DNA of 42,536 bases. Origin: a virus. The stretch lies in the IMG/VR virus record IMGVR_UViG_3300025853_000191, positions 1 through 42,536 of that record; one strand, 5' to 3'. Every line of letters starts with the position of its first letter. The stretch's first letter is position 1. A model generated the notes under the pieces. The model was not told the origin of the DNA. It searched no databases and saw nothing but the letters and a program-made list of their open reading frames with translations. This document shows, one piece after another, positions 4,088-42,316 of this stretch. The translations under genes were made by a program, and so were the position numbers.

Positions 4088-5584
4088 TCACTCGCCACGC
4101 TTTCCGATGATGTCGTCGATTCGTAGTATACTGATTGTAACTTCACTGGCCGATTGAATAGCCTGCTTGACTAAATCAAGTGGCTCGAAGACATCTTGCT
4201 CTTTCATCGAACAAGCACCGCCGTTTTCTATATCTGGACCACTGTCAGTGTTACCCGCCTTGTGTTCATTTCTTAGTGTCAGTATAGTGTCAAGTGGGTC
4301 ATGACCTGCATTTTCTGCAATCGTAGCCGGTATAGACTCCAATGCGTCAGCAAATGCGTCGATAGCCATTTGCTCTCTACCGCCTGCTTCCGCAGCCCTT
4401 GAGCGTAAGTGCAATGCTGCATTGAGATAAGCAGAACCTCCGCCGTAGACAACCGAGTCGCTGTTGTAAGCCAAGCAAACTACACCAAGAGCATCTTCAA
4501 ATCCACGCTCAGTCTCGTCAAGAGTTTGCTTAGTAGCGCCTCTTAGAATAAGCGTAGTGACTTCTCCTTCACCTTTGACAACGACATACTTCATGTCACC
4601 GATAGTCTTACACTCTGCATCGCAATCTACAGCCTCTTGTAGGTCTTCTGTAGTGTGAGCGATAGTAGTGTTGAGTAACTTGGCTAATGCTGTCATGTCA
4701 CTTTCAGGTATTCTGTGCACCATGGATATGTTGTGCTTGGCTAATGTAGCCGCTACAACTTCATGAACAGTGTCTCTGACAAATACTACGCCTCCTTCTG
4801 GTAGAAGGTTAGTTATGGTCTTGGCCTTGTCTACCCACTGCTCTCTACCTGATTGTCGCTTGTATTGCTGGTATTCGGCAGCAGAGCCAAGATTCAGTTG
4901 AACATTATCATCGCTTTTGATATCACTTAGACCAGTGTTGATTAGTAAAGCCTGACCATTTGGTAGAGTAGGCATAGCAGGTAACATGAACTCTTTGTGC
5001 AAAACTACACCGCTAAAGCAAGACGAGTCATCTAGGCTACCACCCGGCTGACATAGAACTCTGATTCTTTCAAAGTCACCTGCTGCTTTCTTGACCGCCT
5101 CTACACATAATCCACTAACATGCTCTACGCTAGATTCTAACGCTTTGCCTGTAATAGAAGTCTTTGCTACATTACTAAGATGCTTAGAGCCTTTGAAAGA
5201 CAGTGACTGTATGTGGTCAGTTGCCCACTTGGAGGCTTTTCTGTAACCACGACAAATAATATTGGCATGAAGCCCTTTGTTAAACAGAAGTTCACTGTTA
5301 CCCAGTAACTCTCCTGCCAAGACTACCGTACTTGTCGTACCATCATAGCATATGTTCTCTTGTGTGTTAGCCGCTTCGACTACCATTTTAGCCGCAGGGT
5401 GACTGATGTCTAACTCTTGTAGAATAGTGGCACCGTCGTTAGTAACTATTACATTACCACCGGCATCCACCATCATCTTGTCCATACCCATCGGGCCAAG
5501 TGTTGTCTTGACCGTCATTACGGCTCTTTTTGCTGCTCTTATATTATGCACTACTGCGCTTGTGTTGCTCTCGTTTTCGTTCAT
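4088..5584 (-). CDS. Group II chaperonin (thermosome/CCT-like)
   Basis: A 498-residue protein-folding ATPase; family members form double-ring cages. Hallmarks in order are TLGPMGMDKM, VTNDGATIL, the nucleotide loop (YDGTTSTVVLAGELL), the EDALGVV segment that carries the second catalytic Asp, GGGSAY, GGREQMAIDAFADAL and ENAGHDPLDTI. Both ATPase aspartates appear kept, but the usual GDGTT reads YDGTT and the Glu after GGG is lost. At 498 residues it is slightly shorter than cellular thermosomes (about 545). ATG 5584 has GAGGG upstream; an in-frame TTG at 5599 is disfavoured. It overlaps the upstream gene by 41 bases. Magroviruses are known to carry such chaperonins, presumably for virion or replication protein folding. 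Confidence 0.95.
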   Translation of the reverse strand: MNENESNTSAVVHNIRAAKRAVMTVKTTLGPMGMDKMMVDAGGNVIVTNDGATILQELDISHPAAKMVVEAANTQENICYDGTTSTVVLAGELLGNSELLFNKGLHANIICRGYRKASKWATDHIQSLSFKGSKHLSNVAKTSITGKALESSVEHVSGLCVEAVKKAAGDFERIRVLCQPGGSLDDSSCFSGVVLHKEFMLPAMPTLPNGQALLINTGLSDIKSDDNVQLNLGSAAEYQQYKRQSGREQWVDKAKTITNLLPEGGVVFVRDTVHEVVAATLAKHNISMVHRIPESDMTALAKLLNTTIAHTTEDLQEAVDCDAECKTIGDMKYVVVKGEGEVTTLILRGATKQTLDETERGFEDALGVVCLAYNSDSVVYGGGSAYLNAALHLRSRAAEAGGREQMAIDAFADALESIPATIAENAGHDPLDTILTLRNEHKAGNTDSGPDIENGGACSMKEQDVFEPLDLVKQAIQSASEVTISILRIDDIIGKRGE

Positions 5585-5708
5585 TATTTTCCCTCTCAAA
5601 ATATTCTTCCAATATGGAATCTATACAGGAAGTACACACTCTATGCTTAGAGCATCTAATTCCTGACCAATTATCTCTTTCGCATACTTCGCAGACTATC
5701 ATTGACAT
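5544..5708 (-). CDS. 54-residue zinc-finger mini-protein
   Basis: Begins MSMIVCEVCERDNW, with ATG 5708 overlapping the exonuclease stop (TAATG). Six cysteines as CEVC, a lone Cys, and CTSC form a likely zinc finger, followed by a charged helix (EEYFERENNERKREQHKR). Its last 41 bases overlap the start of the chaperonin gene. Function unknown. Confidence 0.6.
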   Translation of the reverse strand: MSMIVCEVCERDNWSGIRCSKHRVCTSCIDSILEEYFERENNERKREQHKRSSA

Positions 5709-7883: not shown

Positions 7884-8595
7884 TTCCTTTCCCTCTCTTG
7901 TTGTATGTTTTCTGAATCCTAATCGGTTCTTCGGATGTCAGTACATTTAGCAATCTCTGTCGCAGAGTTGTCCCCATTCCTCTTACTTGTTTAAGTGATT
8001 CGGGAAACAACATCTCTTCGATTGACCCGCATTTTTCTAGCAACTTGTCCACTAAATCTGGACCAAAGCCCGGTATCGTAACAAGCATGTCTGCTCGTAC
8101 ATCATTAGTGCTTACTCTCGTTATCGCTTTTGCACCATGCTTGCTGGCAGGTTTGTTCATTTTAGCATGTAACTTGGCTATGAAAATACCTGCCTCGGTG
8201 TAATCCTTTGCTCGATAAATATGACAATCGAAATCTGCTGTAAGTCTGGCAAATATCCCTAGCATCATGTCTAAGACCTTTGGATAACTGGTAGGTCTCC
8301 CTTGATTTTTACACATTGCGACATACTTGGCGATGTCACCGTGTACCAGCAAAACGACTCTGTCGCAGTTAGCATCCAAGTTTTCTATTTGCCTTTGTAG
8401 ATGGCCCTTGAATGTAGATTGAATCAAATCGGATATACTTTTACACTCTATGTGAGCATTACCTGCTTTGTAGTCTCCCATGCCCTGTAAATGTTCTTTC
8501 TTTACAGAGAAGCCCTCTCTTTCGGCGGCACGAATGACAGCATCATGTAGAGGCCCTCTTTCGTTAGTGTCAATTATTAGAGGAGATTTACTCAT
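7861..8595 (-). CDS. ERCC4-type structure-specific nuclease with helix-hairpin-helix domain
   Basis: A 244-residue XPF/Mus81/Hef-like nuclease. The N-terminal catalytic motifs are DTNERG, GDYKAGN and ECKSISDL, matching the family pattern D-x-R-E ... GDY ... ERK-x3-D with Arg replaced by Cys. The C-terminal third is a tandem helix-hairpin-helix (IPGFGPDLVDKLL, then VRGMGTTLRQRLL) for binding branched or flapped DNA. It likely resolves replication forks or recombination intermediates. ATG 8595 has AGGAGG 7-8 bases upstream and overlaps the previous stop by 8 bases. Confidence 0.9.
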   Translation of the reverse strand: MSKSPLIIDTNERGPLHDAVIRAAEREGFSVKKEHLQGMGDYKAGNAHIECKSISDLIQSTFKGHLQRQIENLDANCDRVVLLVHGDIAKYVAMCKNQGRPTSYPKVLDMMLGIFARLTADFDCHIYRAKDYTEAGIFIAKLHAKMNKPASKHGAKAITRVSTNDVRADMLVTIPGFGPDLVDKLLEKCGSIEEMLFPESLKQVRGMGTTLRQRLLNVLTSEEPIRIQKTYNKRGKGNDGTQSR

Positions 8596-11184: not shown

Positions 11185-11366
11185 TCTGATTCCTCCTCGA
11201 TTAATTTCTGTAGGTAGACAGCCAAGTCCATGGCTTCTTCTTGAGCATGGATGAGCCATTCTAGCCTAGACAAAGGTGCAGTCTCCATAGTAACTCCGTA
11301 CTTCGCTTTACCGACTTCTGCTCTCCCTTGTATTTTCTTACATACTTCGTCTTCTATTCTGCTCAT
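11181..11366 (-). CDS. MazG-like mini-protein, putative nucleotide pyrophosphohydrolase fold
   Basis: 61 residues with the layout R-x3-GKAKYG ... LEWLIHAQEEAMDLAVYLQKL, which resembles small MazG-like phage proteins (EE-x2-D metal-binding helix). If active, it would cleave NTPs or alarmones, but at this length it carries little more than the core helices. ATG 11366 follows GGTGATAAA. It is coupled to the nuclease by ATGA. The family call is by eye. Confidence 0.55.
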   Translation of the reverse strand: MSRIEDEVCKKIQGRAEVGKAKYGVTMETAPLSRLEWLIHAQEEAMDLAVYLQKLIEEESE

Positions 11367-11370
11367 TTTA

Positions 11371-13722
11371 TCACCAATATTGTTTAGGCATCGCTGCCCC
11401 GCTTGCTCTTTCTAAGTCCCAATCTAGGGCTCTGAATATAGGTTTTATTTTGTCTTTGACAATTTTATCAACCATTAAATCATAATCTATTACGAAACCG
11501 TCTAGTTCGCTGACATCTTCGTAAGCAACTACTGGAGTAGAAGGTAAACCGTCTTTCGGCTTGGCAATATATACCCAGTCTACGCTGTCTCCTTCCCCAA
11601 AGTGGTTACGCCCAACCATGTGCCGATTGTAATACCTAGCCGCTTTAACAGCACCGCCAGCAGTATCCGAGTATTCTGTCAACCTTTTCTGTAATCTAGT
11701 AGTAGTAGATATATCCTTTATATCGACATCCCCTCGCTTTATTTTCTTAGCCAACGGTCTTACTATGCTGATGACCTTTTCTTCGTCAGCCCCAGTGCAG
11801 ATAGCAGTGAGTATATCGTTTTCTAAGTCCTTCGATATCGGAGACAAAGTACTAATTTTGCCCCACCTTGCTGATTTCTTTTTACCTTCGTCTTCCGGTG
11901 GCCAAGAACAGATACCGTAGTACAGATTTTTACCGCCGACAATCCAGTAAGGCATGTAAGCCTCAAACTCTACAATCAAATGACTCGCTTCATGGTCACG
12001 CTGTATCGTCTCAGTTAGATGCTTGGCTAAAGCAGGTGCTTCATCGAAAGGTACTTCGACAAAAGCAGAATCTGTGTGACCGTACAGTGCCTTGTAGCCA
12101 GCCTTTTCTGACTCTTCCATAAGAGCCTTGATTGCCCTTCGACCACAGGCCGTGATAGCACTGGCTATGTCGAAATCCGACCAACCCCAGTAAGCACTGG
12201 CAGTCATGCCGTAAAACGATGCCATTACACGCTTTACTGCAAGTTGTAATGTGTTCCATCCGTTTCGCTCATTTTCAGTGGGGGCTTCTCGCATTTTCTT
12301 TTTGTAATTGTCACGGAGTTCAAACATCTCCGTAACAATCTTAGGTAGCAATGCAGGGACATCTTGTCTCCAACAAGTACCATCAGGTAATTGCCTAACA
12401 TTGTCTGCCTCTGCCATGTGCTTAGGAACTTGGGTCTCCCACGATAGATTATGGCTCAGTATGATACTAGGGTAGAGACCCTTGTAATCAACACAAGCCA
12501 CACCCTCATATCTACCGGGCTTGGGAGGTGGAATGAAAGCACCTTCGTACTCTTGCTTCTCTTGCATAGAACGACTCGGTGCCTTCCAGTGTGTTCGTCT
12601 GTTCAACAGACCTTTGGCGAACCGTGTAACATTGTGACACGATTCAAAAGAAACGCCACATAATCTTTGTAGCGATAAAAAGAAATTCAGTACATGGTTA
12701 CCTTCGTCTATCTTTTTGAGCAATAAAGTATCTTGCATACAGTAATCGACATAGTCATCAAACCTTTCTGTCCAACCTGTCTTGACATCCATGTCGAACT
12801 TACCACCTAGTTTACAGGCTTTGGCGATAGTATCTAATTTCAAATTCTTGAGTTGGGGTTGACCACTATCCTTCCATACACGCTCAAAGCCGCTACCGCT
12901 TCTTACTGGTGCAGCAGTATCAAAGCATAACCTACCTACGATAGGTTGGGCTACATAATCATAAGCACCGCTTTTCATAGGTTTCATGACTCTGCCCAAA
13001 GGACTCAGTTTTCTGAAACGCTTTAGTCTGTCAATCAAGTGAGGTAGGTCAGCCCACATGATAGCGTGGGCTACAAATACATCTGGATTACATTCGTCTA
13101 GGTAGTAAAGAAAGGCATCATGCATTTCTTGTTCTGAACCGTAGAGGTATCTCTCGTAAGTAAATTCTTGAACTTCACCGTTAACTTCGTACTCTACGAT
13201 TTTATTCTCTAATTGATAATCGTTATCATGTAAGCCGTTAGGATTGTACTTCTTCCAACAAAAAGCCACATGACGATTGTTGTAGTTGTCTATAACCGCC
13301 ATCACTGTGGTTTCTTTGGTCTTAACATCCCACTCTAAATCAAAGTGCCATACTCTTGGTTTCCATTCGGGCATTTCTTTTACATTGTCTATCAGATATC
13401 TGTCTTGTAGACTGAGGTCTGCTTCCCATGTTTTTCTGAACATAGCGGCCATACTCTTGACATCGGATTGTCTGTAAGCGTACACCTTGACTAATGGTTC
13501 ATCGTCTCTAAGGCCAACCGCTTTGTCTTCCCAGTCTATACGAGAGCCGGGGAACTGGTCGATGACCGAGTTAGCGATTTGCTTAGAAGTATTGGCTGAA
13601 ATCCAAAAGTAAGGCTCGAAGTCAGTAACTGTTTCTTCAATCAAATTACCCTCAGCGTCACGCCATCTCTTGTAGATATGGTCGGGACCTGTAGGGTCTG
13701 GTTTGAAGATGTCGATTATCAT
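11371..13722 (-). CDS. polB: Family B DNA polymerase with 3'-5' proofreading exonuclease
   Basis: A 783-residue replicative polymerase. The exonuclease motifs are HFDLEWD (Exo I), VAHAIMWADLPHL (Exo II) and YCMQD (Exo III). The polymerase motifs are DYKGLYPSII (motif A), KRVMASFYGMT (motif B) and YGHTDSAF (motif C, catalytic TDS). All catalytic acidic residues look intact and the length is normal for the family, with no intein. The PCNA-like clamp lies three genes upstream. It would copy the virus genome. Start ATG 13722 overlaps the RBS module GAGGAATAGATATG that also ends the previous gene. Confidence 0.97.
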   Translation of the reverse strand: MIIDIFKPDPTGPDHIYKRWRDAEGNLIEETVTDFEPYFWISANTSKQIANSVIDQFPGSRIDWEDKAVGLRDDEPLVKVYAYRQSDVKSMAAMFRKTWEADLSLQDRYLIDNVKEMPEWKPRVWHFDLEWDVKTKETTVMAVIDNYNNRHVAFCWKKYNPNGLHDNDYQLENKIVEYEVNGEVQEFTYERYLYGSEQEMHDAFLYYLDECNPDVFVAHAIMWADLPHLIDRLKRFRKLSPLGRVMKPMKSGAYDYVAQPIVGRLCFDTAAPVRSGSGFERVWKDSGQPQLKNLKLDTIAKACKLGGKFDMDVKTGWTERFDDYVDYCMQDTLLLKKIDEGNHVLNFFLSLQRLCGVSFESCHNVTRFAKGLLNRRTHWKAPSRSMQEKQEYEGAFIPPPKPGRYEGVACVDYKGLYPSIILSHNLSWETQVPKHMAEADNVRQLPDGTCWRQDVPALLPKIVTEMFELRDNYKKKMREAPTENERNGWNTLQLAVKRVMASFYGMTASAYWGWSDFDIASAITACGRRAIKALMEESEKAGYKALYGHTDSAFVEVPFDEAPALAKHLTETIQRDHEASHLIVEFEAYMPYWIVGGKNLYYGICSWPPEDEGKKKSARWGKISTLSPISKDLENDILTAICTGADEEKVISIVRPLAKKIKRGDVDIKDISTTTRLQKRLTEYSDTAGGAVKAARYYNRHMVGRNHFGEGDSVDWVYIAKPKDGLPSTPVVAYEDVSELDGFVIDYDLMVDKIVKDKIKPIFRALDWDLERASGAAMPKQYW

Positions 13723-14887: not shown

Positions 14888-15922
14888 TCAGATTACACCG
14901 TCTCGTAGTTCAGGTAAACCGTACCACTGTGCATTTTCACCTTTCTTAGTAACAAAGTAAAGTCTCTCTTGATTCAACAAGTTTGGATTAGTCTTCTGCT
15001 TGAAGAACTCAGCAGTGTATCTAACTTCGCCAGTCAAAGAACCATCATTGTTTCTCATATACTTGTTCTTACACCATAGTATTTGGAACAGGTCTTTGTT
15101 AGCACTAGCATGCCAAGCGAACTTCCATCCGTCGAATCCTACTTTGCCATCTTTGTCTTCTTTAAGATGAGTCTCCCAATAGACATCGACACCTAGCCTG
15201 TTCAGTTTTTGACACTGAGCAGTTAGTTGCTTGAATCTTGTAGCACGAATATTCCAGTTCCAACCAATCTCGGCATTGAGTTTGGAGTGGCTGGCTTCGA
15301 CAGCATTAGTAGCAGTCATGTCCAAGTCGTAAATCTTCATACAGGTAATACACATCTCGTCAAACTGGTCAACGCCAGTGACAATGAATGATTTGAGCAT
15401 TGGTCCTTCAAAGCCCGGCTTGTACTGATTCTCTGCATACTCTACAGCAAACTTGGCAAGTTCCATGACTCGGTTGTAACTGAGTAAGTAGTTGTAAGCA
15501 GTCTTGTCTTCCTGTTGCATAACCCAAGGTGAGAATATACGGAAGGCAGGGTCGTTGTTGTAGTGAGCCTGTTTACAGGATAATCCGCCATTGTCATGGT
15601 CAATTACTATACAAAGAGAATCTCCATGCTTATGCTTGTGAGCATCCATAGCCAGACCAGTCTTACCAGTACCTTCGTGACCGACTACGCCCATGAAAGT
15701 AGCACTAGGTTGTATAGCAGGCGCTTTCGCTTGCTCTTTCATTTCCTGTGCAATAGCAGGGAACCTACTGATAAATTCAGTAGAGGTCTCAGGAGTTAAC
15801 TTCTCCTTGATATTCTGCTCTATGTTTTCTTGAACCACAGGCTCAGCGGCTGCTGATGCAACCGGCTGAGTTGTAGTTACTGGCTGTGCTTCGTCTCCTA
15901 GTAATGCATCCCATCCACTCAT
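14888..15922 (-). CDS. RadA/Sak4-like recombinase ATPase
   Basis: 344 residues. About 70 low-complexity residues (TTTQPVASAAAEP) precede a RecA-fold core with Walker A GHEGTGKTGLA and Walker B-like SFIVTGVDQFDEM. The single compact core without the RadA N-terminal helix-hairpin-helix fits the Sak4 class of viral single-strand annealing/recombination ATPases. It would act with the adjacent putative single-strand binding protein. ATG 15922 overlaps the previous stop and follows GGAGGAGATGAAC. Confidence 0.78.
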   Translation of the reverse strand: MSGWDALLGDEAQPVTTTQPVASAAAEPVVQENIEQNIKEKLTPETSTEFISRFPAIAQEMKEQAKAPAIQPSATFMGVVGHEGTGKTGLAMDAHKHKHGDSLCIVIDHDNGGLSCKQAHYNNDPAFRIFSPWVMQQEDKTAYNYLLSYNRVMELAKFAVEYAENQYKPGFEGPMLKSFIVTGVDQFDEMCITCMKIYDLDMTATNAVEASHSKLNAEIGWNWNIRATRFKQLTAQCQKLNRLGVDVYWETHLKEDKDGKVGFDGWKFAWHASANKDLFQILWCKNKYMRNNDGSLTGEVRYTAEFFKQKTNPNLLNQERLYFVTKKGENAQWYGLPELRDGVI

Positions 15923-17169
15923 TGTTCATCTCCTCCAAATTGATTTAGGCTTGTGTTCCCACTTCCACCCGCAGGGCGAGCAGTTCTGTGTGGAATGTAA
16001 ATACCAAGCGCTGATAGGCTTGGTTGCATTTCATTGTTGAATGGCCGTAGTCTCAATCTACCAACTACGATAACATTGGTCTTCTCATTGTAGTGACCCC
16101 ATTCACCCTTTGCATTTTTGTATTCAAACACTCTGTCTTCATCGTGCATTCTACCAGATACCCAGACCGTTACTGGGTCTACATTCTGGCGATAGATGCT
16201 GAGACGATACGAGCGACCAGTCGGGTCATACTCACTTTCCATCGGCTCTCTGTTCAGATAAGTGATTGAACCATATGTGATTACGACAGGGTTGATTGTC
16301 ATACCATTGGCTGTAGTGATTTTCTTTGCTGCGTGAGCGTCAAGTAAGTTACCTAACTCTACATACTCACCATGCATATCACCGTTGATTAGAAGCCTCT
16401 CTGCGCTAAAGGCTACTCTAAGGTGCTCAGGTAGCCAAGAGTCAGTGTATTCAACTGTTTCATGGAAGTTGCGATTTGTATACAAGATGTCTTGGTCTTT
16501 ATTCTTAGGCTCTACTACTTTTATTCGACTTGCTACCCACTTCTCGTAGTCAGCGTTCATAGACTTCCCTTGAAGACTGATTGACCATTTCTTTATGTCG
16601 CCACCGCTTTCCGGTGAGCCTAAGAAGTAAGCAGTCCTACTGATACTAGTAGGTGCAATAGGCTTTCTTTCATTGTTTCTTTCAGCCATTAGACACAGAA
16701 TCATGTCGTCAAACTCAAAGCCGTACCAAGGTAGGTCGCTACCTTGAACTCTGTCGTTTGTTTCTTTACCATTGAGATGCCACTTACCAGACTTAGCAGT
16801 AAGAATACCAATATGACCTTCGTCGATTGCTCTATCTCTGTTCGTCTTGAACATGTTAATTGCTCTGTCATACATACCCTTTCGGTTATCTCTTTCAGTG
16901 TCTTCAATTCCAATGAACATACCGACATAAGTAACAGTGTCTTGCTGACGGCTTGCACTTTCGTTTCTATTTTCTATTACGAATTGTTCACTCCATTGAC
17001 TTAGATAGAATGGGTCTTCATCGAATGGATTTTCTACTGCAAACTCATCTTTCAACCACTTGTTGAATTTGTTGGCGGCTTCCCCCAACTTGATGCCGGT
17101 TCGCTCAGCATACCCATTCAGTCTTTCAATCACATCTTCTGGCCATTTGGTTCCATTATTTTCTTCCAT
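15919..17169 (-). CDS. Putative single-strand DNA-binding protein (RPA/OB-fold-like)
   Basis: 416 residues, mostly beta strands with OB-fold-like segments (TVTYVGMFIGIEDTER; PVTVWVSGRMHDEDR; TNVIVVGRLRLRPF). It ends with a flexible Gly/Asn/acidic tail (GGSGNTSLNQFGGDEQ), as many SSB proteins do. It lies between the RadA-like ATPase and the clamp loader. I chose ATG 17169 because GGAGG sits 7 bases upstream, too close for ATG 17175. Function is inferred from context and fold impression. Confidence 0.45.
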   Translation of the reverse strand: MEENNGTKWPEDVIERLNGYAERTGIKLGEAANKFNKWLKDEFAVENPFDEDPFYLSQWSEQFVIENRNESASRQQDTVTYVGMFIGIEDTERDNRKGMYDRAINMFKTNRDRAIDEGHIGILTAKSGKWHLNGKETNDRVQGSDLPWYGFEFDDMILCLMAERNNERKPIAPTSISRTAYFLGSPESGGDIKKWSISLQGKSMNADYEKWVASRIKVVEPKNKDQDILYTNRNFHETVEYTDSWLPEHLRVAFSAERLLINGDMHGEYVELGNLLDAHAAKKITTANGMTINPVVITYGSITYLNREPMESEYDPTGRSYRLSIYRQNVDPVTVWVSGRMHDEDRVFEYKNAKGEWGHYNEKTNVIVVGRLRLRPFNNEMQPSLSALGIYIPHRTARPAGGSGNTSLNQFGGDEQ

Positions 17170-35052: not shown

Positions 35053-35099
35053 GTTTATTCTTCCTGTTTTTTCTGGGTTAGCAAACCAAGGTGAAGCAA

Positions 35100-35125
35100 C
35101 ACTTCTTTATCCCTTTATAAAGGAA
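35100..35125 (-). promoter_or_regulatory. Leftward TATA promoter, family B copy 1 (head of the block)
   Basis: A 26-base block with the palindromic core CCTTTATAAAGG, identical to that at 37093-37118. On the minus strand it reads TTTATAAAGGGATAAAGAAG. It directs the leftward genes from 35052 down; being palindromic it might also fire to the right. Confidence 0.72.
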
Positions 35126-36993: not shown

Positions 36994-37092
36994 ATTTCAT
37001 TCCTCTTGTAGCGCACCATGCCACACTCCCCATACCACACCACTCCACAGTGGGAGAGGGGGAGGGGGGAGTAGCAAAGTTTGCTGGGAAAT

Positions 37093-37118
37093 CACTTCTT
37101 TATCCCTTTATAAAGGAA
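37093..37118 (-). promoter_or_regulatory. Leftward TATA promoter, family B copy 2
   Basis: Identical in 26 bases to 35100-35125, core CCTTTATAAAGG. Upstream of the lone gene at 36271-36993, with a leader of about 90 bases. Confidence 0.7.
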
Positions 37119-37164: not shown

Positions 37165-37188
37165 AGTTTAGACGATGGGTTTAGACGA
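37165..37188. repeat. Iteron pair AGTTTAGACGA (outlying)
   Basis: Copies at 37165-37175 and 37178-37188, starts 13 bases apart, matching the main cluster at 37461-37572. Confidence 0.6.
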
Positions 37189-37460
37189 ATGCGTAAGAAG
37201 ATGAATGTATGTACAGTTCCACCCATATGAGTGGGTGAGTGCGTAGCACACCCCACCGACCACAGACAACCACGCACCACACACCCAGACAGACACAGCC
37301 GGGCGGCTCACATTGGTGCGGGTATTACACACGGCTCGCTCACATTCGTATGCGTACGCCTATGGCTTTCAATTCTCAGGCGAATGCCTAGCGTCATGTA
37401 CGCCCGCCCCTCATGTACGACAGGCGTACGCCTCACATGCGACCCGTACCTGTGGCTTCT

Positions 37461-37572
37461 AGTTTAGATGGCTAGTTTAGACAGCCCAGTACCCCGGTCT
37501 ATAGAACAGGGCACGGCAGTTTAGACGGCCAGTTTAGACGGAGGAATGCAGTTTAGATGGCAGTTTAGACTT
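37461..37572. repeat. Iteron cluster AGTTTAGAYGG
   Basis: Six copies start at 37461, 37474, 37518, 37531, 37550 and 37562, forming three pairs 12-13 bases apart (about one helical turn plus). Such paired iterons normally bind a replication initiator or a master regulator. Confidence 0.65.
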
Positions 37573-37674
37573 CTTTAACCACACACGGCGCTCCGAAAAA
37601 AAAATTTTCAGAAAACTTTTTGGTATACCTAAATTGGCGATAACCTTTTCTTTAGTTGACCCTTCGGTTTACTC

Positions 37675-37851
37675 ATGAGTGCCATCAATGATGCATGGAC
37701 TGTCCTCAAAAATTACCGAGGGCCAGAAGATAGTCCACGGATGGCTAGTATGACGAGTCAAGAGATGGCGGGATACATAGCCGAAATTCAACAACTCAAA
37801 GAAGAGAATGCAATGTTGCGAGCGCAGTTAGAAAGTTTACAACAGCAATGA
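37675..37851 (+). CDS. Small leucine-zipper protein with AW-x-LLK-type N-terminus
   Basis: 58 residues: MSAINDAWTVLKN, then a C-terminal heptad helix (IQQLKEENAMLRAQLESLQQ). The N-terminus is the most diverged copy of the tag shared with the four genes below. The heptads predict oligomerisation. First gene of the rightward module after the divergence; no clear ribosome site. Confidence 0.62.
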   Translation: MSAINDAWTVLKNYRGPEDSPRMASMTSQEMAGYIAEIQQLKEENAMLRAQLESLQQQ

Positions 37852-37902
37852 ACTTTTTGGTTGACCGCTGGCTTTTTACCCCCAGCCCCTATCGGATAGT
37901 AC

Positions 37903-38439
37903 ATGGGCGCATTCGACAGGGCTTGGGCTTTGCTCAAAGGTCAGTATATGCACCCTAGCGTAATGGGCCACTTTGCTCGTGGCTCAATGGTTCGGGAAGC
38001 AGATGACAGTAATGAATATGCTTTTGATGACTTTGGCGACCCTGCCAACGCACCAACAATGTTTTCAGGGACACCAGCAGACCTTAAACACAGGCAGCAA
38101 CAAAAGATTGCTGAAAAGTCTCATTTTGAAAATGCTGCTGAAATGAGAGAGGCAGGTTTTAGACCAAGAGTAAGAGAACAAGCCATGTCTATACCTCAAG
38201 AAGAAGTTGAGGCGTTTATTCAAAACAGATTGGTAAATCCTCCAGTAATACCGGCTAAGTTCCATCCTTCGGCATATCCCGGCGAAAGGGCTTTGTCTGA
38301 CTCAATGCTTGACGGACCTGACGAAATCAATCTTAAGAGATTAATTGCTGCAAAGCAAGGAGGACATTATGATGATGGGCCTGAGTTCGGTTTGAGTGAA
38401 CCTACGGACAGACGAGATTTATTCCAACCTGACCAATAA
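37903..38439 (+). CDS. Tagged protein: AW-x-LLK N-terminus, otherwise unknown
   Basis: 178 residues, starts MGAFDRAWALLKGQ. The rest is hydrophilic and looks disordered (Gln/Glu/Pro-rich; YPGERALSDSMLDGPDE). No ribosome site before ATG 37903. A TTGACC element 42 bases upstream resembles one before 37675. Proposed virion-associated from position and tag. Confidence 0.6.
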   Translation: MGAFDRAWALLKGQYMHPSVMGHFARGSMVREADDSNEYAFDDFGDPANAPTMFSGTPADLKHRQQQKIAEKSHFENAAEMREAGFRPRVREQAMSIPQEEVEAFIQNRLVNPPVIPAKFHPSAYPGERALSDSMLDGPDEINLKRLIAAKQGGHYDDGPEFGLSEPTDRRDLFQPDQ

Positions 38440-38470
38440 GTTTAATTTCTACACTGCTCTGGTCTCCGAC

Positions 38471-38653
38471 ATGAGTATGTTTGAATTTTTATTAACCAGA
38501 TTGGTCGGATTATTTGCATTTGGTATTATCTTTGGATTTACATGGGCTTGGTTCGCCCTCGTTGAAGAAAAAGACCCCGGTTTAGTTATCTTTGAAGACG
38601 AAGCCGAACTGCAAGAAATGTGTATCGGTGGCCTTCGGAGAGTGAAGGAATGA
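38471..38653 (+). CDS. Small membrane protein
   Basis: 60 residues, one transmembrane helix (LVGLFAFGIIFGFTWAWFAL) near the N-terminus and an acidic cytoplasmic-like tail. ATG 38471 is chosen; ATG 38396 would extend it into the preceding gene. Its stop overlaps the lyase ATG, so the two may be co-translated. Could be holin-like or a membrane anchor; unproven. Confidence 0.6.
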   Translation: MSMFEFLLTRLVGLFAFGIIFGFTWAWFALVEEKDPGLVIFEDEAELQEMCIGGLRRVKE

Positions 38654-39477
38654 AGGTAACCGTCTATGAGGTCGGCCCTCGTGACGGTTTACAATATCTT
38701 GAGCATATCATCGACACAGACGACAAAAAGAATCTCATTAACGCACTCTATAGAGCAGGGATAGAGAATATCGAAGAGGTAAGTTTTGCTCATCCTAAGC
38801 GTTTGCCTCAAATGGCTGATGCTGAAAAGACATTTACTGGTTTTGGTGCTGGACTTGTGATGAACAAGCGGGGTTATGACAGGGCAGTAAAGGCGGGTGT
38901 GGAGAAGATAAACATCGTTTTCAGCCCTTGTGAGACTTTCAATGTCAACAATATGGGTAAGACACGGCAAGAAATTGTTTTGATGTACAAGACTTTCATG
39001 GACAAGGTGCCCAAAGAAAATGTCAGAGTTTACATCAGTATGGCTTTTGGTAGTCCTCATAGTGGTATTGTGAAGCCACAAACTATGCTTTCTTGTCTTA
39101 GGGATGCCAAGATGTTTGGTAATACTGTCGTGCTTTCTGACACTGTTGGTGTAGCGAGTCATCAAGAGATTGCGCTTTGGGCTGAGATGGCGCTCGACGA
39201 AGGTCTTGTACCAGCCCTTCATTTACATCACAAAGGTGACGAATCCAGAGCAGTGTCATTAGTAAAGAGTGGCTTACTTAACGGTATCAAGGAATTTGAC
39301 AGTAGTATCAACGGACTTGGCGGTTGCCCATTTGCTGAGGGCAGTGGGGCTAACTTGAGTACCCAGACCTTGGTGCGCCATCTAAACGCATGGGGTTTTG
39401 ATTGTGGTTTGCAGGAAGAAGACCTTGCTGACGCTGCTCGTATTGCTCGTGCGCTTACCAATGTTCTTTTATCCTAG
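38650..39477 (+). CDS. 3-hydroxy-3-methylglutaryl-CoA lyase-like enzyme (DRE-TIM metallolyase)
   Basis: 275 residues, a TIM-barrel lyase. GPRDGLQ (residues about 9-15) supplies the metal-binding Arg/Asp; EEVSFAHPKRLPQM, LSDTVGVA, the His-x-His pair in ALHLHHKGD, and the Cys loop GLGGCPFAEGSGAN match HMG-CoA lyase active-site positions. The expected reaction is HMG-CoA to acetyl-CoA and acetoacetate. The His-x-His-Asp of cellular enzymes reads His-x-His-His here. ATG 38650 overlaps the membrane gene stop. An unusual metabolic gene within a virion-type module. Confidence 0.85.
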   Translation: MKVTVYEVGPRDGLQYLEHIIDTDDKKNLINALYRAGIENIEEVSFAHPKRLPQMADAEKTFTGFGAGLVMNKRGYDRAVKAGVEKINIVFSPCETFNVNNMGKTRQEIVLMYKTFMDKVPKENVRVYISMAFGSPHSGIVKPQTMLSCLRDAKMFGNTVVLSDTVGVASHQEIALWAEMALDEGLVPALHLHHKGDESRAVSLVKSGLLNGIKEFDSSINGLGGCPFAEGSGANLSTQTLVRHLNAWGFDCGLQEEDLADAARIARALTNVLLS

Positions 39478-39494
39478 TTTGCTCTAGCCCGACT

Positions 39495-40292
39495 ATGGCG
39501 GGGCCATTTCAACAGTCTTGGTTAATTTTAAAAGAATTATCTCAAAGGGACTTACTAGAAGCCTCTCAATTCGGTATGCCGTCGAGAATGCAACGCTTCC
39601 CAGCAGAGCATCCGTTAAATCCAGACTTAGTTCAAGGAGTGAGTGGTATCAACTATCCTCAGTCAAGAGGCGGGCAAGGTATGTCGGATACTATTCAAGA
39701 ATATAATGAAGCAGTGTTTCCCGAACAAGAGGCTTATGAACGACAGATAAACACCCCCACTCCTCTTTCATCTTCTACGCCAGAAGAAATAGCATCTATG
39801 GCTTATGGGGAACAGGCTTTACAGGGTCGTTTACACGATGACATTATAGAAGAACGAAGAGCGCACAGTGATAGAGAAAGGGCTTATGAAAAACTAGTTC
39901 CAATGAACCCCGCTGAAACAGAAGAGGGTATCATAGAGGCTCAGAAATATCAACAAGATTTACAAAACGCAATCAGACAAAGAATGGGGACAGAAGGTAG
40001 GTTAGATAGAAGACAAGAAGCGCTCAGACAAGCGCAGATTCCAAGTTTACCTGATGACAGTATGGCTGACCCTCGTGAAATGAGTAGTTCTGCCGCAGAT
40101 GCTGCTATGGATTTCATAAGAGATAATCAGCGAACTTTGCCAGCAAGACCGCCTCAAAGCATTACTGATAGAGCCAGTCCAAACTTTCCCGGCAAAAACT
40201 TGCACAACCCGAACATGCCCAGAGACAGAGGCTATGCAGATTATCTCAAAACAGTTTTTGAGATGCGGAGAAAAGAAGCATTAGGTGAGTAA
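39495..40292 (+). CDS. Tagged protein: MAGPFQQSW-x-LKEL, unknown
   Basis: 265 residues. The N-terminal tag (FQQSWLILKELSQRDLLEAS) is the variant of AW-x-LLK. The remainder is disordered and Glu/Gln/Arg-rich with helices (RREEALRQAQ-like). Starts 17 bases after the lyase stop without a ribosome site. Scaffold- or internal-protein-like by composition. Confidence 0.6.
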   Translation: MAGPFQQSWLILKELSQRDLLEASQFGMPSRMQRFPAEHPLNPDLVQGVSGINYPQSRGGQGMSDTIQEYNEAVFPEQEAYERQINTPTPLSSSTPEEIASMAYGEQALQGRLHDDIIEERRAHSDRERAYEKLVPMNPAETEEGIIEAQKYQQDLQNAIRQRMGTEGRLDRRQEALRQAQIPSLPDDSMADPREMSSSAADAAMDFIRDNQRTLPARPPQSITDRASPNFPGKNLHNPNMPRDRGYADYLKTVFEMRRKEALGE

Positions 40293-40294
40293 TA

Positions 40295-41056
40295 ATGATA
40301 GCATTCGAGCAAGCATGGAACCTTTTGAAAGCCTTGGACACACAAGACTTGAGACAGGCTGCTCGAACTGGAGGCCTGCGTGAAACTCCTGAAAGGAAGC
40401 AGGCTTACAGGGATGTAGGTATGCCTTACAATGCGCCACCTATGCTACAAACAATCCGTGACGCTAGATTTGGCTTGGCAGACATAACACCTGCGTCGCA
40501 CACTGGTAGTCAAAGAGATGCAGAAAGGTTAATGGAAAGTCAGAAACCAAATTTTGCTTTTAAAGACCCAGCGCTTGATAGAACAAAGCCTTTGGGTACA
40601 AGACGGAGGTCTAAAGAGTATTTTGGCGGATGGAACAAAAAGGATGAAGGTATGGGTCAATTTTCTGAATTACACTACCCCGGACTTGACCAAGGTGATA
40701 TATTACATCCCGATATAATGACTGACCCAGAATTTGAACCACTGATGGAAGGTCCTACTGATGAACCATTTATGTTAGACGATGTACTTGAAGGTCAACC
40801 CGCACCTCCCACTCAAGAAATGCCTTCTTCTGAACCATTTGATATTGTTAACAGAAGAGTAGCAGCACGAGAAGAAGCGGCTCGAAGAGAAGCAGAATCA
40901 GAAAGGGCTAGACAGGAACTGGTCGCTCAGCGTCGTCAGGAAATGATGAGCAGAAAACAACCTACTCAACCTGTCACACCAGAAATAAGCCAGTCTGTAC
41001 AAAACGCTGCTATGCAAGCAATACTTGCACGACAAAAAGAATTAGGACTTAGGTGA
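40295..41056 (+). CDS. Tagged coiled-coil protein: MIAFEQAWNLLKA, unknown
   Basis: 253 residues. The N-terminal MIAFEQAWNLLKAL is followed by ...QDLRQAARTGG. C-terminal region is an Arg/Glu/Gln coiled coil (REEAARREAESERARQELVA). AGGTGAG precedes ATG 40295. The first 39 bases of the gene match the next gene's at 37 positions, pointing to recent duplication of the tag alone. Confidence 0.65.
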   Translation: MIAFEQAWNLLKALDTQDLRQAARTGGLRETPERKQAYRDVGMPYNAPPMLQTIRDARFGLADITPASHTGSQRDAERLMESQKPNFAFKDPALDRTKPLGTRRRSKEYFGGWNKKDEGMGQFSELHYPGLDQGDILHPDIMTDPEFEPLMEGPTDEPFMLDDVLEGQPAPPTQEMPSSEPFDIVNRRVAAREEAARREAESERARQELVAQRRQEMMSRKQPTQPVTPEISQSVQNAAMQAILARQKELGLR

Positions 41057-41062
41057 ACAACT

Positions 41063-42316
41063 ATGAGAGCATTCGAACAAGCATGGAACCTTTTGAAAGC
41101 CAGACCGGAAGAACAACTCATGGGAATGGGTGGCACCTACTCTGGTGGTATGACGATTGACCCTCGTGTAATGTCTATGGCAGGCGGCAGAAAGGGCGTA
41201 GAAAGAGCACCTTTTACTTCTGACCAAGGACTCACAAGAGAGCAATTACAAGCCGAAGCAGCAAGAATGCAAGCGGAAGGATTGTCAGACGAACTGATAG
41301 CACAGCGTCAAGCACAGGCTATGCTTGCTGACCCAAGTGTTGCAGGTAGACCACTGCGTGAAACAGAATTAGCAGAAGGCTTCCAAAGTCCGGGTGAAAG
41401 AAGAGCAGATGTTGCAGGTCTTACGGGTGCTGCAAGAAGGCAACTTGGCGGCGGTCAACGAGGTCTTAGAATGGACACTTCAAGTATGACACCGGGACAA
41501 CGGCAAAATGTTGTTGACAAAGAAACTGGCGAACTTGGTATGCGTCGTAAGGTAAGAGTTCGTCGGGGTAACGAAGAAGGTATCATGACCATGGGAAGAG
41601 GCCGAGGTAGAAAGGGTGCTTTCAAACAAAGAAGTTACGAAGCACTTGGTAGAAATCCAGACAAGCGTCAGTTTAAGACTGATGCTGAGAAAACTAGTGA
41701 TGTGTTAGCAGATGTTGCTGCTCAAATCGGAGCAGACTATACTCGGCCAGAAAATGCTAGTATGATTGCTCAACCTAGAAAATTCAAAGAAGGACTCAAG
41801 CCGGGCAGTGATGCTTATGAGGCTAGGCATCAACAGTTAGAAGACCAAGAGGAATTGTTCACTCAGATGTATGGTCCTGAGATGGCTGCAAGAATAATGC
41901 AAGAGATTACAGAAAATCCTGAGCCTCCAACCTTTACTCCACGAGCAAGTATGCAGGCCGCTGACCAATTCCAAGGTGACAAGCCTGTGTTCAGACCGAG
42001 CAGGGGCGGCGCTTTCTTAGGCCCTCAGTTTGACGAAAAAACTGGTGCGCCTAAGATGACTTCCAGAGGTACGCCTTCGATGACAGGTATTACACCTGTA
42101 GACATTGAAGAAATGGGTCGTCAGGCTATGGTCCCTGACCCTAACGACCCCGATAAATCTATTATTGACCCAGCAATTTTGTCCAGATATCAAGATAAAT
42201 TAGACGCAGCGCCAGTGACTGCTGATGAAAAGAGAGCAGTTGCTGACAGATTAAGGGCAACAACAGAAAGAGCAATTTCTGATAGACAAGCGAATAAGGG
42301 TAGAGTTAGGCTTTAA
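41063..42316 (+). CDS. Tagged disordered protein: MRAFEQAWNLLKA, unknown
   Basis: 417 residues. After the tag MRAFEQAWNLLKAR the protein is Gly/Arg/Gln-rich (GRGRGRKGAFKQRSYEALGR) with long helices. AGGTGA precedes ATG 41063. Strong bias in composition but no known domain. Candidate internal virion or scaffold protein. Confidence 0.63.
   Translation: MRAFEQAWNLLKARPEEQLMGMGGTYSGGMTIDPRVMSMAGGRKGVERAPFTSDQGLTREQLQAEAARMQAEGLSDELIAQRQAQAMLADPSVAGRPLRETELAEGFQSPGERRADVAGLTGAARRQLGGGQRGLRMDTSSMTPGQRQNVVDKETGELGMRRKVRVRRGNEEGIMTMGRGRGRKGAFKQRSYEALGRNPDKRQFKTDAEKTSDVLADVAAQIGADYTRPENASMIAQPRKFKEGLKPGSDAYEARHQQLEDQEELFTQMYGPEMAARIMQEITENPEPPTFTPRASMQAADQFQGDKPVFRPSRGGAFLGPQFDEKTGAPKMTSRGTPSMTGITPVDIEEMGRQAMVPDPNDPDKSIIDPAILSRYQDKLDAAPVTADEKRAVADRLRATTERAISDRQANKGRVRL

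Follow-up and report, generated by a model that had tools for sequence, protein, structure and literature searches.

A putative cargo tag shared by unrelated late proteins of magrovirus-like archaeal viruses

Known peptide signals for loading proteins into virus particles

One precedent for a short peptide shared by otherwise diverse phage proteins is the capsid targeting sequence (CTS) of phage T4, which is conserved on a diverse set of defence proteins (PMC3012670) and on all internal head proteins, including Alt (PMC5694885). Carriers of this sequence (IPI, IPII, IPIII and Alt) are soluble proteins that include an ADP-ribosyltransferase, and the peptide is cleaved. In the giant phage SPN3US, N-terminal propeptides are thought to target inner-head proteins, and two diverged proteins (gp53 and gp54) share their N-terminus (PMC5694885). 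Those propeptides, however, are mostly longer than 100 residues and are cleaved. A third arrangement is found in the Photorhabdus virulence cassette, a phage-derived particle in which N-terminal signal peptides load unrelated effectors into a contractile tail tube with an AAA ATPase (PMC11495950).

Here we examine a 12-residue tag carried by many proteins of viruses that infect abundant ocean archaea. As in T4, a short N-terminal peptide is shared by unrelated soluble proteins, the predicted cargo includes ADP-ribosyltransferase folds, and a prohead protease is encoded. In contrast to the T4 sequence, the tag is present on 3-18 genes per record, also occurs internally and at C-termini, and is found in archaeal viruses. 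Its sequence does not resemble that of T4, as the tag profile scores only -9.7 to -20 on the N-termini of IPI, IPII, IPIII and Alt. No conserved residue follows position 15, where information is about 0.2 bit or less, although the specificity of the viral protease that might act there is unknown. Compared with the SPN3US propeptides, the tag is far shorter and shows no evidence of cleavage. Unlike the Photorhabdus cassette, magroviruses are predicted to have non-contractile tails (PMC10768690). The closest cultured relatives of the capsid protein are in HVTV-1 and HCTV-1 (Druskaviridae; 32% identity), which have the same terminase-portal-protease-MCP gene order, but HVTV-1 lacks the tag (best score 7, with no N-terminal match). 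We found no earlier description of the tag in literature searches, which did not cover most subscription papers.

Five tagged genes in a magrovirus-like record

The window analysed is the whole 42,536-nucleotide IMG/VR record IMGVR_UViG_3300025853_000191. A sequence-only reading had noted that five different rightward proteins share an N-terminal tag, that the first 39 coding bases of the last two genes match at 37 positions as if a start module had been copied, and that the tag might be an archaeal-virus targeting, docking or packaging signal comparable to that of T4. We confirmed the observation, which proved to be larger than first described. All five open reading frames and starts are present on the plus strand. 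Copy 1 (MSAINDAWTVLK, 37675-37710; profile score 22.3) begins a 58-aa coiled-coil protein (37675-37851), and copy 2 (MGAFDRAWALLK, 37903-37938) begins a 178-aa protein (37903-38439) whose orthologue at position 8406 of a related record, L111, keeps the tag. Copy 3 (MAGPFQQSWLILK, 39495-39533; profile score 22.3) has one extra residue after Met and begins a 265-aa protein (39495-40292). Copy 4 (MIAFEQAWNLLK, 40295-40330) begins a 253-aa protein (40295-41056), and copy 5 (MRAFEQAWNLLK, 41063-41098) begins a 417-aa protein (41063-42316) with tagged orthologues in the related records L109 and L110 (71% identical). The genes carrying copies 4 and 5 match at 37 of their first 39 bases, but at only 6 of the next 21. 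From residue 15 onward, the five bodies show no significant similarity to each other (best blastp E 0.41).

Two other plus-strand genes within this block are untagged: one for a small membrane protein (38471-38653) and one that is HMG-CoA-lyase-like (38620-39477, ATG at 38651; Pfam HMGL-like, E 5e-22). The latter serves as an in-operon negative control, and the same family is untagged in each of 18 records in which it was found. An array of AGTTTAGAY repeats (37461-37575, plus strand) lies just upstream of the first tagged gene, at the early/late boundary. The opposite, early strand carries a chaperonin gene (4088-5599; phrog_5725, E 2e-45) and a family B DNA polymerase gene (11371-13722; phrog_262, E 8e-83) whose nearest full-length hits are from haloarchaeal tailed viruses. 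A family B polymerase, a chaperonin, an HMG-CoA lyase and two opposed gene clusters are the hallmarks of Magrovirales, tailed viruses of Poseidoniales archaea (PMC10768690). The assignment as magrovirus-like rests on these features rather than on phylogenetic placement with named members (ON649702, OR863078 and PP497040).

A portable motif on unrelated late-strand proteins

A strict degenerate pattern for the tag matches 106 stretches in IMG/VR, whereas a permuted pattern of the same residues matches none. The nine hits in GTDB genomes are chance-like, and a host-derived motif is rejected on this basis. In 24 related records, a profile finds 200 ATG starts scoring 12 or higher, compared with 0-1 for shuffled N-termini. 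Chance is therefore rejected by permuted and shuffled controls, and also by the reversed pattern described below. We grouped 442 distinct tagged proteins into 174 body clusters, and information falls to about 0.2 bit by residue 15. Furthermore, untagged homologues of DUF7831 proteins in bacterial phages start where the tag ends, indicating that the tag is an add-on. A full-length domain shared by the tagged proteins, which had been set in advance as grounds for rejecting the targeting hypothesis, is thus ruled out.

Tagged genes lie on the terminase strand (132 versus 2), in a block that opens the late operon, with strand serving as a proxy for the timing of expression. The second ground set for rejecting the targeting hypothesis, absence of tagged proteins from late modules, thus also fails. 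In a sample of 50 records selected by terminase, 33 strict matches in 15 records all reside on the terminase strand, and the reversed pattern gives 0. A search limited to 10-kb flanks of the terminase undercounted prevalence because the block lies further upstream, and so we relied on whole-record searches. Four large records with no strict match still carry 7-14 motif copies on the late strand (46 versus 2 weak).

The motif is not only N-terminal, and in this respect the sequence-only description was too narrow. It also occurs inside or at the C-terminus of larger late proteins of related viruses, with 48 late and 3 early copies compared with 0-1 for shuffles, and up to three copies in one protein. 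The motif is therefore a portable linear element, [AP]-[FM]-[DE]-x-A-W-x-[LV]-[LV]-K. Its hydrophobic moment peaks at 100-110 degrees, as expected for an amphipathic helix, and an AF2 model predicts a separate helix at residues 3-11 ahead of the enzyme fold.

The carriers include proteins with a predicted ADP-ribosyltransferase fold, as well as NUDIX, HD_4, SLOG, DUF7831, D12 methyltransferase and zinc-ribbon proteins. However, PHROG and Pfam name few tagged bodies, and most have no recognisable function. For a kinase-like cluster, the AF2 model was unusable (pLDDT 53) and a PDB profile search gave nothing meaningful. A tape-measure-like PHROG hit among the tagged set (position 11315 of record L163) is probably a false tag call. 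Only 1% of tagged proteins have a membrane segment, compared with 12% of other late proteins. One tagged late enzyme (G028_54995, record L219 at 14995-16230) has an untagged early-strand homologue in another record (G022_41642). The head machinery is present, including a portal, an S78 protease (Peptidase_S78, E 8.5e-12; phrog_23555, E 4.5e-15) and an MCP, and these proteins and the terminase are untagged.

A candidate loading signal and its alternatives

Taken together, these observations are most consistent with the hypothesis that the tag is a cargo-loading signal of magroviruses, working like the T4 capsid targeting sequence without resembling it, and we hold this view with moderate confidence. 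What the analysis establishes is a peptide-level motif attached to many unrelated, soluble, late-strand proteins, mostly at the N-terminus, in every one of the 28 related records scanned in full, and absent from the capsid, portal, protease and terminase and from a metabolic gene in the same operon. The remainder is inference, including virion location (no magrovirus virion proteome exists in the material searched), any cleavage of the tag, and its receptor. In this view, the helix would dock during prohead assembly on an abundant inner-head component, most likely the scaffold-like tail of the S78 protease protein or another conserved late protein. Tagged proteins would then be enclosed before DNA packaging and ejected with the genome, such that ADP-ribosyltransferases and other effectors act at once on the next host cell. 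The sequence-only interpretation is thus partly supported: the archaeal-virus host group and the late-module location hold, and the T4 comparison holds as an analogy of how the tag may work.

If the tag is a loading signal, it reveals a large, fast-changing set of delivered effectors against Poseidoniales hosts, and it would be, as far as we could find, the first such signal in an archaeal virus and a short tag for loading foreign proteins into an archaeal virus head. Loading into the virus particle would turn a large pile of unknown viral genes into one testable class. The tag sorts 174 unrelated protein clusters into one class with a presumably shared fate and provides a simple rule for finding more. 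More tentatively, the tag might represent an order-wide protein-sorting code, wherein one viral receptor reads a degenerate helix motif at N-terminal, internal or C-terminal positions of up to about 20 proteins per virus. Any gene that captures the motif would become virion cargo, and magroviruses would carry an exchangeable arsenal of injected effectors unlike anything described in archaeal viruses.

Other functions are less likely, but some fit part of the data. The internal and multi-copy motifs look like a general linear interaction motif and fit a general docking motif as well as a packaging tag, and perhaps the tag gathers effectors at a virus assembly site or on a host factor within the producing cell, where the cargo would act late in infection. 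The late-only distribution fits this possibility equally well, but we consider it unlikely because host-modifying enzymes such as ADP-ribosyltransferases are more useful at the start of infection, and because one homologue is encoded early without a tag. Loading into the tail lumen rather than the head, by analogy with the Photorhabdus cassette, seems more doubtful still given the predicted non-contractile tails. In siphovirus-like tails the lumen holds the tape measure. Moreover, the tagged block lies next to terminase and head genes, and many tagged proteins are large.

A similarly improbable alternative is a quality-control signal, such as a degron or a chaperone-delivery or chaperonin-client tag. 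The virus encodes a chaperonin, and exposed amphipathic helices can be degrons or chaperone clients. However, the large structural proteins that would most need a chaperonin are untagged, the chaperonin gene is on the early strand, and the strong conservation of W8 and K12 suggests a specific pocket. Least likely is a nucleic-acid-level element (a translation enhancer or recombination cassette) that happens to encode these residues. The near-identical DNA of copies 4 and 5, a codon bias at L10/L11 and a slightly higher synonymous identity within records (0.49 versus 0.42) would be consistent with such an element. This reading is largely refuted by codon diversity, since codons at fixed residues are mixed, and the same peptide motif occurs internally and at C-termini. 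DNA copying explains how the module spreads, but not why it is kept. Finally, a secretion signal is rejected because the motif is charged, has no long hydrophobic run, is not confined to N-termini, and is rarely found on proteins with a membrane segment.

A portable peptide motif

All five ORFs and their start codons are present in the sequence at the stated positions (window 37675-41101), and the observation made in the sequence-only reading, that five different proteins begin with a shared N-terminal tag, is correct. The last two genes agree at 37 of 39 bases and then at only 6 of the next 21, so the shared stretch ends sharply. Beyond the tag, the bodies of the five proteins exhibit no significant similarity to each other (best E value 0.41).

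Several searches demonstrated that the tag is not a product of chance. A degenerate DNA pattern representing M-x-A-F-x-x-A-W-x-[LF]-[LF]-K hits 106 stretches of IMG/VR, nearly all of them at ORF starts, whereas a pattern carrying the same residues in permuted order hits none. In GTDB genomes (257 Gb) there are nine hits, seven of which reside in ORFs of less than 40 amino acids. Furthermore, a position-specific profile applied to all starts in 24 fetched records, using our own simple gene calls, finds 200 ATG starts with scores of at least 12, compared to 0-1 for shuffled N-termini. This profile was trained on the same data that it scans, but its controls were scanned in the same way.

The window, a linear IMG/VR record of 42.5 kb that ends before the head genes, carries a chaperonin, a family B polymerase and an HMG-CoA-lyase-like gene. 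These genes, together with opposed early and late gene blocks, are the features given for magroviruses of Poseidoniales (PMC10768690), and our assignment rests on this resemblance. The capsid protein of a close relative (record G016) is 32% identical to that of HVTV-1 and HCTV-1.

Sequence information in the tag is concentrated in residues 2-12 and falls to about 0.2 bit or less from residue 15 onward, and the consensus is M-[TSN]-[AP]-F-[DE]-x-A-W-x-[LVI]-[LVM]-K. The hydrophobic moment peaks at 100-110 degrees, and an AF2 model of one tagged protein shows a separate predicted helix at residues 3-11 that precedes the enzyme fold. Codons at the fixed residues are mixed, so selection is on the peptide, although some codon bias and the fourth and fifth copies in the window suggest that the DNA module is also copied between genes.

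Although the sequence-only reading described a strictly N-terminal tag, the same motif occurs inside or at the very C-terminus of larger late proteins. We found 48 such copies in late proteins and 3 in early ones, compared to 0-1 in shuffled and 0-2 in reversed sequences. The internal copies have their own flavour, [GS]-E-P-[FM]-D-I-A-W-[RQ]-L-L-K, some proteins carry two or three of them, and a second IMG/VR scan for this flavour found 35 stretches. A related arrangement is seen at L124:6271-6585 (L numbers denote stretches of related records) and its homologues in most records, where a highly conserved and basic DUF6321 domain of approximately 88 residues, about 80-94% identical across otherwise divergent records, is preceded in most by the tag or a degenerate version of it.

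Genomic distribution and carrier proteins

Tagged genes are associated almost exclusively with the late module, where 'late' denotes location on the terminase strand and is not a measure of expression. In 18 records with a terminase match, 132 tagged genes are on the terminase strand and 2 are on the other (Fisher p 3e-30). These genes form a block at the start of the late operon, before terminase, portal, protease and MCP. An independent sample, chosen by terminase rather than by tag, gave 33 strict matches in 15 of 50 mostly partial records, all on the terminase strand, with none for the reversed pattern. Four large records from that sample, which were chosen because they looked negative (no strict match), still carry 7-14 motif copies on the late strand by profile, or 46 in all against 2 weak ones on the other strand.

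The proteins that carry the tag are diverse. A total of 442 distinct tagged proteins, drawn from records that are mostly fragments, fall into 174 body clusters, of which 110 are singletons. In several carriers a recognizable domain starts soon after the tag, as observed for NUDIX at residue 17, HD_4 at residue 17 and DUF7831 at residue 24. DUF7831 homologues in bacterial phages begin where the tag ends, so the tag is an addition to a complete protein. Carriers are soluble, in that 1% have a membrane segment compared to 12% of other late proteins.

A large cluster whose members begin with YHGT has a profile match to RNA 2'-phosphotransferase KptA (E 3e-4), and its AF2 model (pLDDT 83) matches KptA and ADP-ribosylating toxins in the PDB (best E 8e-5, probability 1.00, TM about 0.4), which supports membership in the superfamily but does not indicate a substrate. 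Others match NUDIX, HD_4, a SLOG family, D12 methyltransferase and zinc ribbons. A further tagged family (L098:6901-7668, L044:7970-8809 and relatives; alignment A5) exhibits by eye a kinase-like GDRHxxN...DLD pattern, but neither database searches nor structural modeling confirmed this resemblance.

Not every gene in the late module carries the tag. Portal, MCP, protease and terminase are never tagged in the 24 records, and the HMG-CoA-lyase-like gene (window 38620-39477), which sits amid tagged genes, is likewise untagged in all 18 records that have it. Furthermore, one tagged late protein (G028_54995, L219:14995-16230) has a 39.5%-identical homologue in another record (G022_41642) that is untagged and encoded on the early strand. 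This is what one would expect if the tag lets a late-made protein act early in the next cell, although it is only a single case.

A possible signal for packaging effectors

Our analyses establish that the tag is a portable and late peptide motif that is present on soluble, unrelated proteins and absent from the core head proteins. It is an inference from these characteristics that the motif binds an abundant inner-head component during prohead assembly, and that its carriers are enclosed in the head. The virus group encodes an S78 protease (L125:9414-10832; alignment A8) whose long and variable C-terminal tail has a conserved end, suggesting a protease-scaffold fusion, and this scaffold-like tail is a plausible but entirely putative receptor. 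Phage T4 accomplishes such loading with a different peptide. T-even internal proteins are described as a diverse set of defence proteins with only a conserved targeting sequence (PMC3012670), all T4 internal head proteins are stated to join the core through a CTS (PMC5694885), and the T4 record notes that Alt, an ADP-ribosyltransferase, is in the capsid and enters the host.

The interpretation offered in the sequence-only reading, that the tag may be an archaeal-virus targeting, docking or packaging signal comparable to that of T4, is therefore partly supported. The tag works like a T4 CTS in the features that can be read from sequence, but a direct comparison revealed no sequence similarity to the T4 peptides, no conserved site at which the tag might be cleaved follows it, enclosure of its carriers is only inferred, and we do not classify it as a CTS. 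Taken together, these observations reveal a real and striking feature of magroviruses, apparently undescribed in the open-licence papers covered by our literature search, for which the packaging of effectors is the best explanation, held with moderate confidence.

Additional features of these genomes

AGTTTAGAY repeats are present at the early/late boundary of the window (37165-37575), and a related GGGTTTAGAC lies directly before the start codon of some tagged genes in relatives. The region between the early and late blocks also carries a 47-nt direct repeat (window 35079-35125 and 37072-37118), whose copies are 2 kb apart and 79% identical. Between portal and protease, a giant late protein of 1860 amino acids (L125:3800-9382) has a weak match to an ATP-dependent DNA ligase domain (E 7e-5, below the Pfam cut-off), and HVTV-1 has a large protein annotated as zeta toxin at the same place. 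Finally, early-strand genes in record G003 (L145:10542-12735), and also in records G031, G008 and G001, share another repeated N-terminus, MIDTDKYEGH, plus a second block, DAPLLLxEVKRLRE. With five or more consecutive copies in G003, this looks like a diverging paralogous family rather than a tag.
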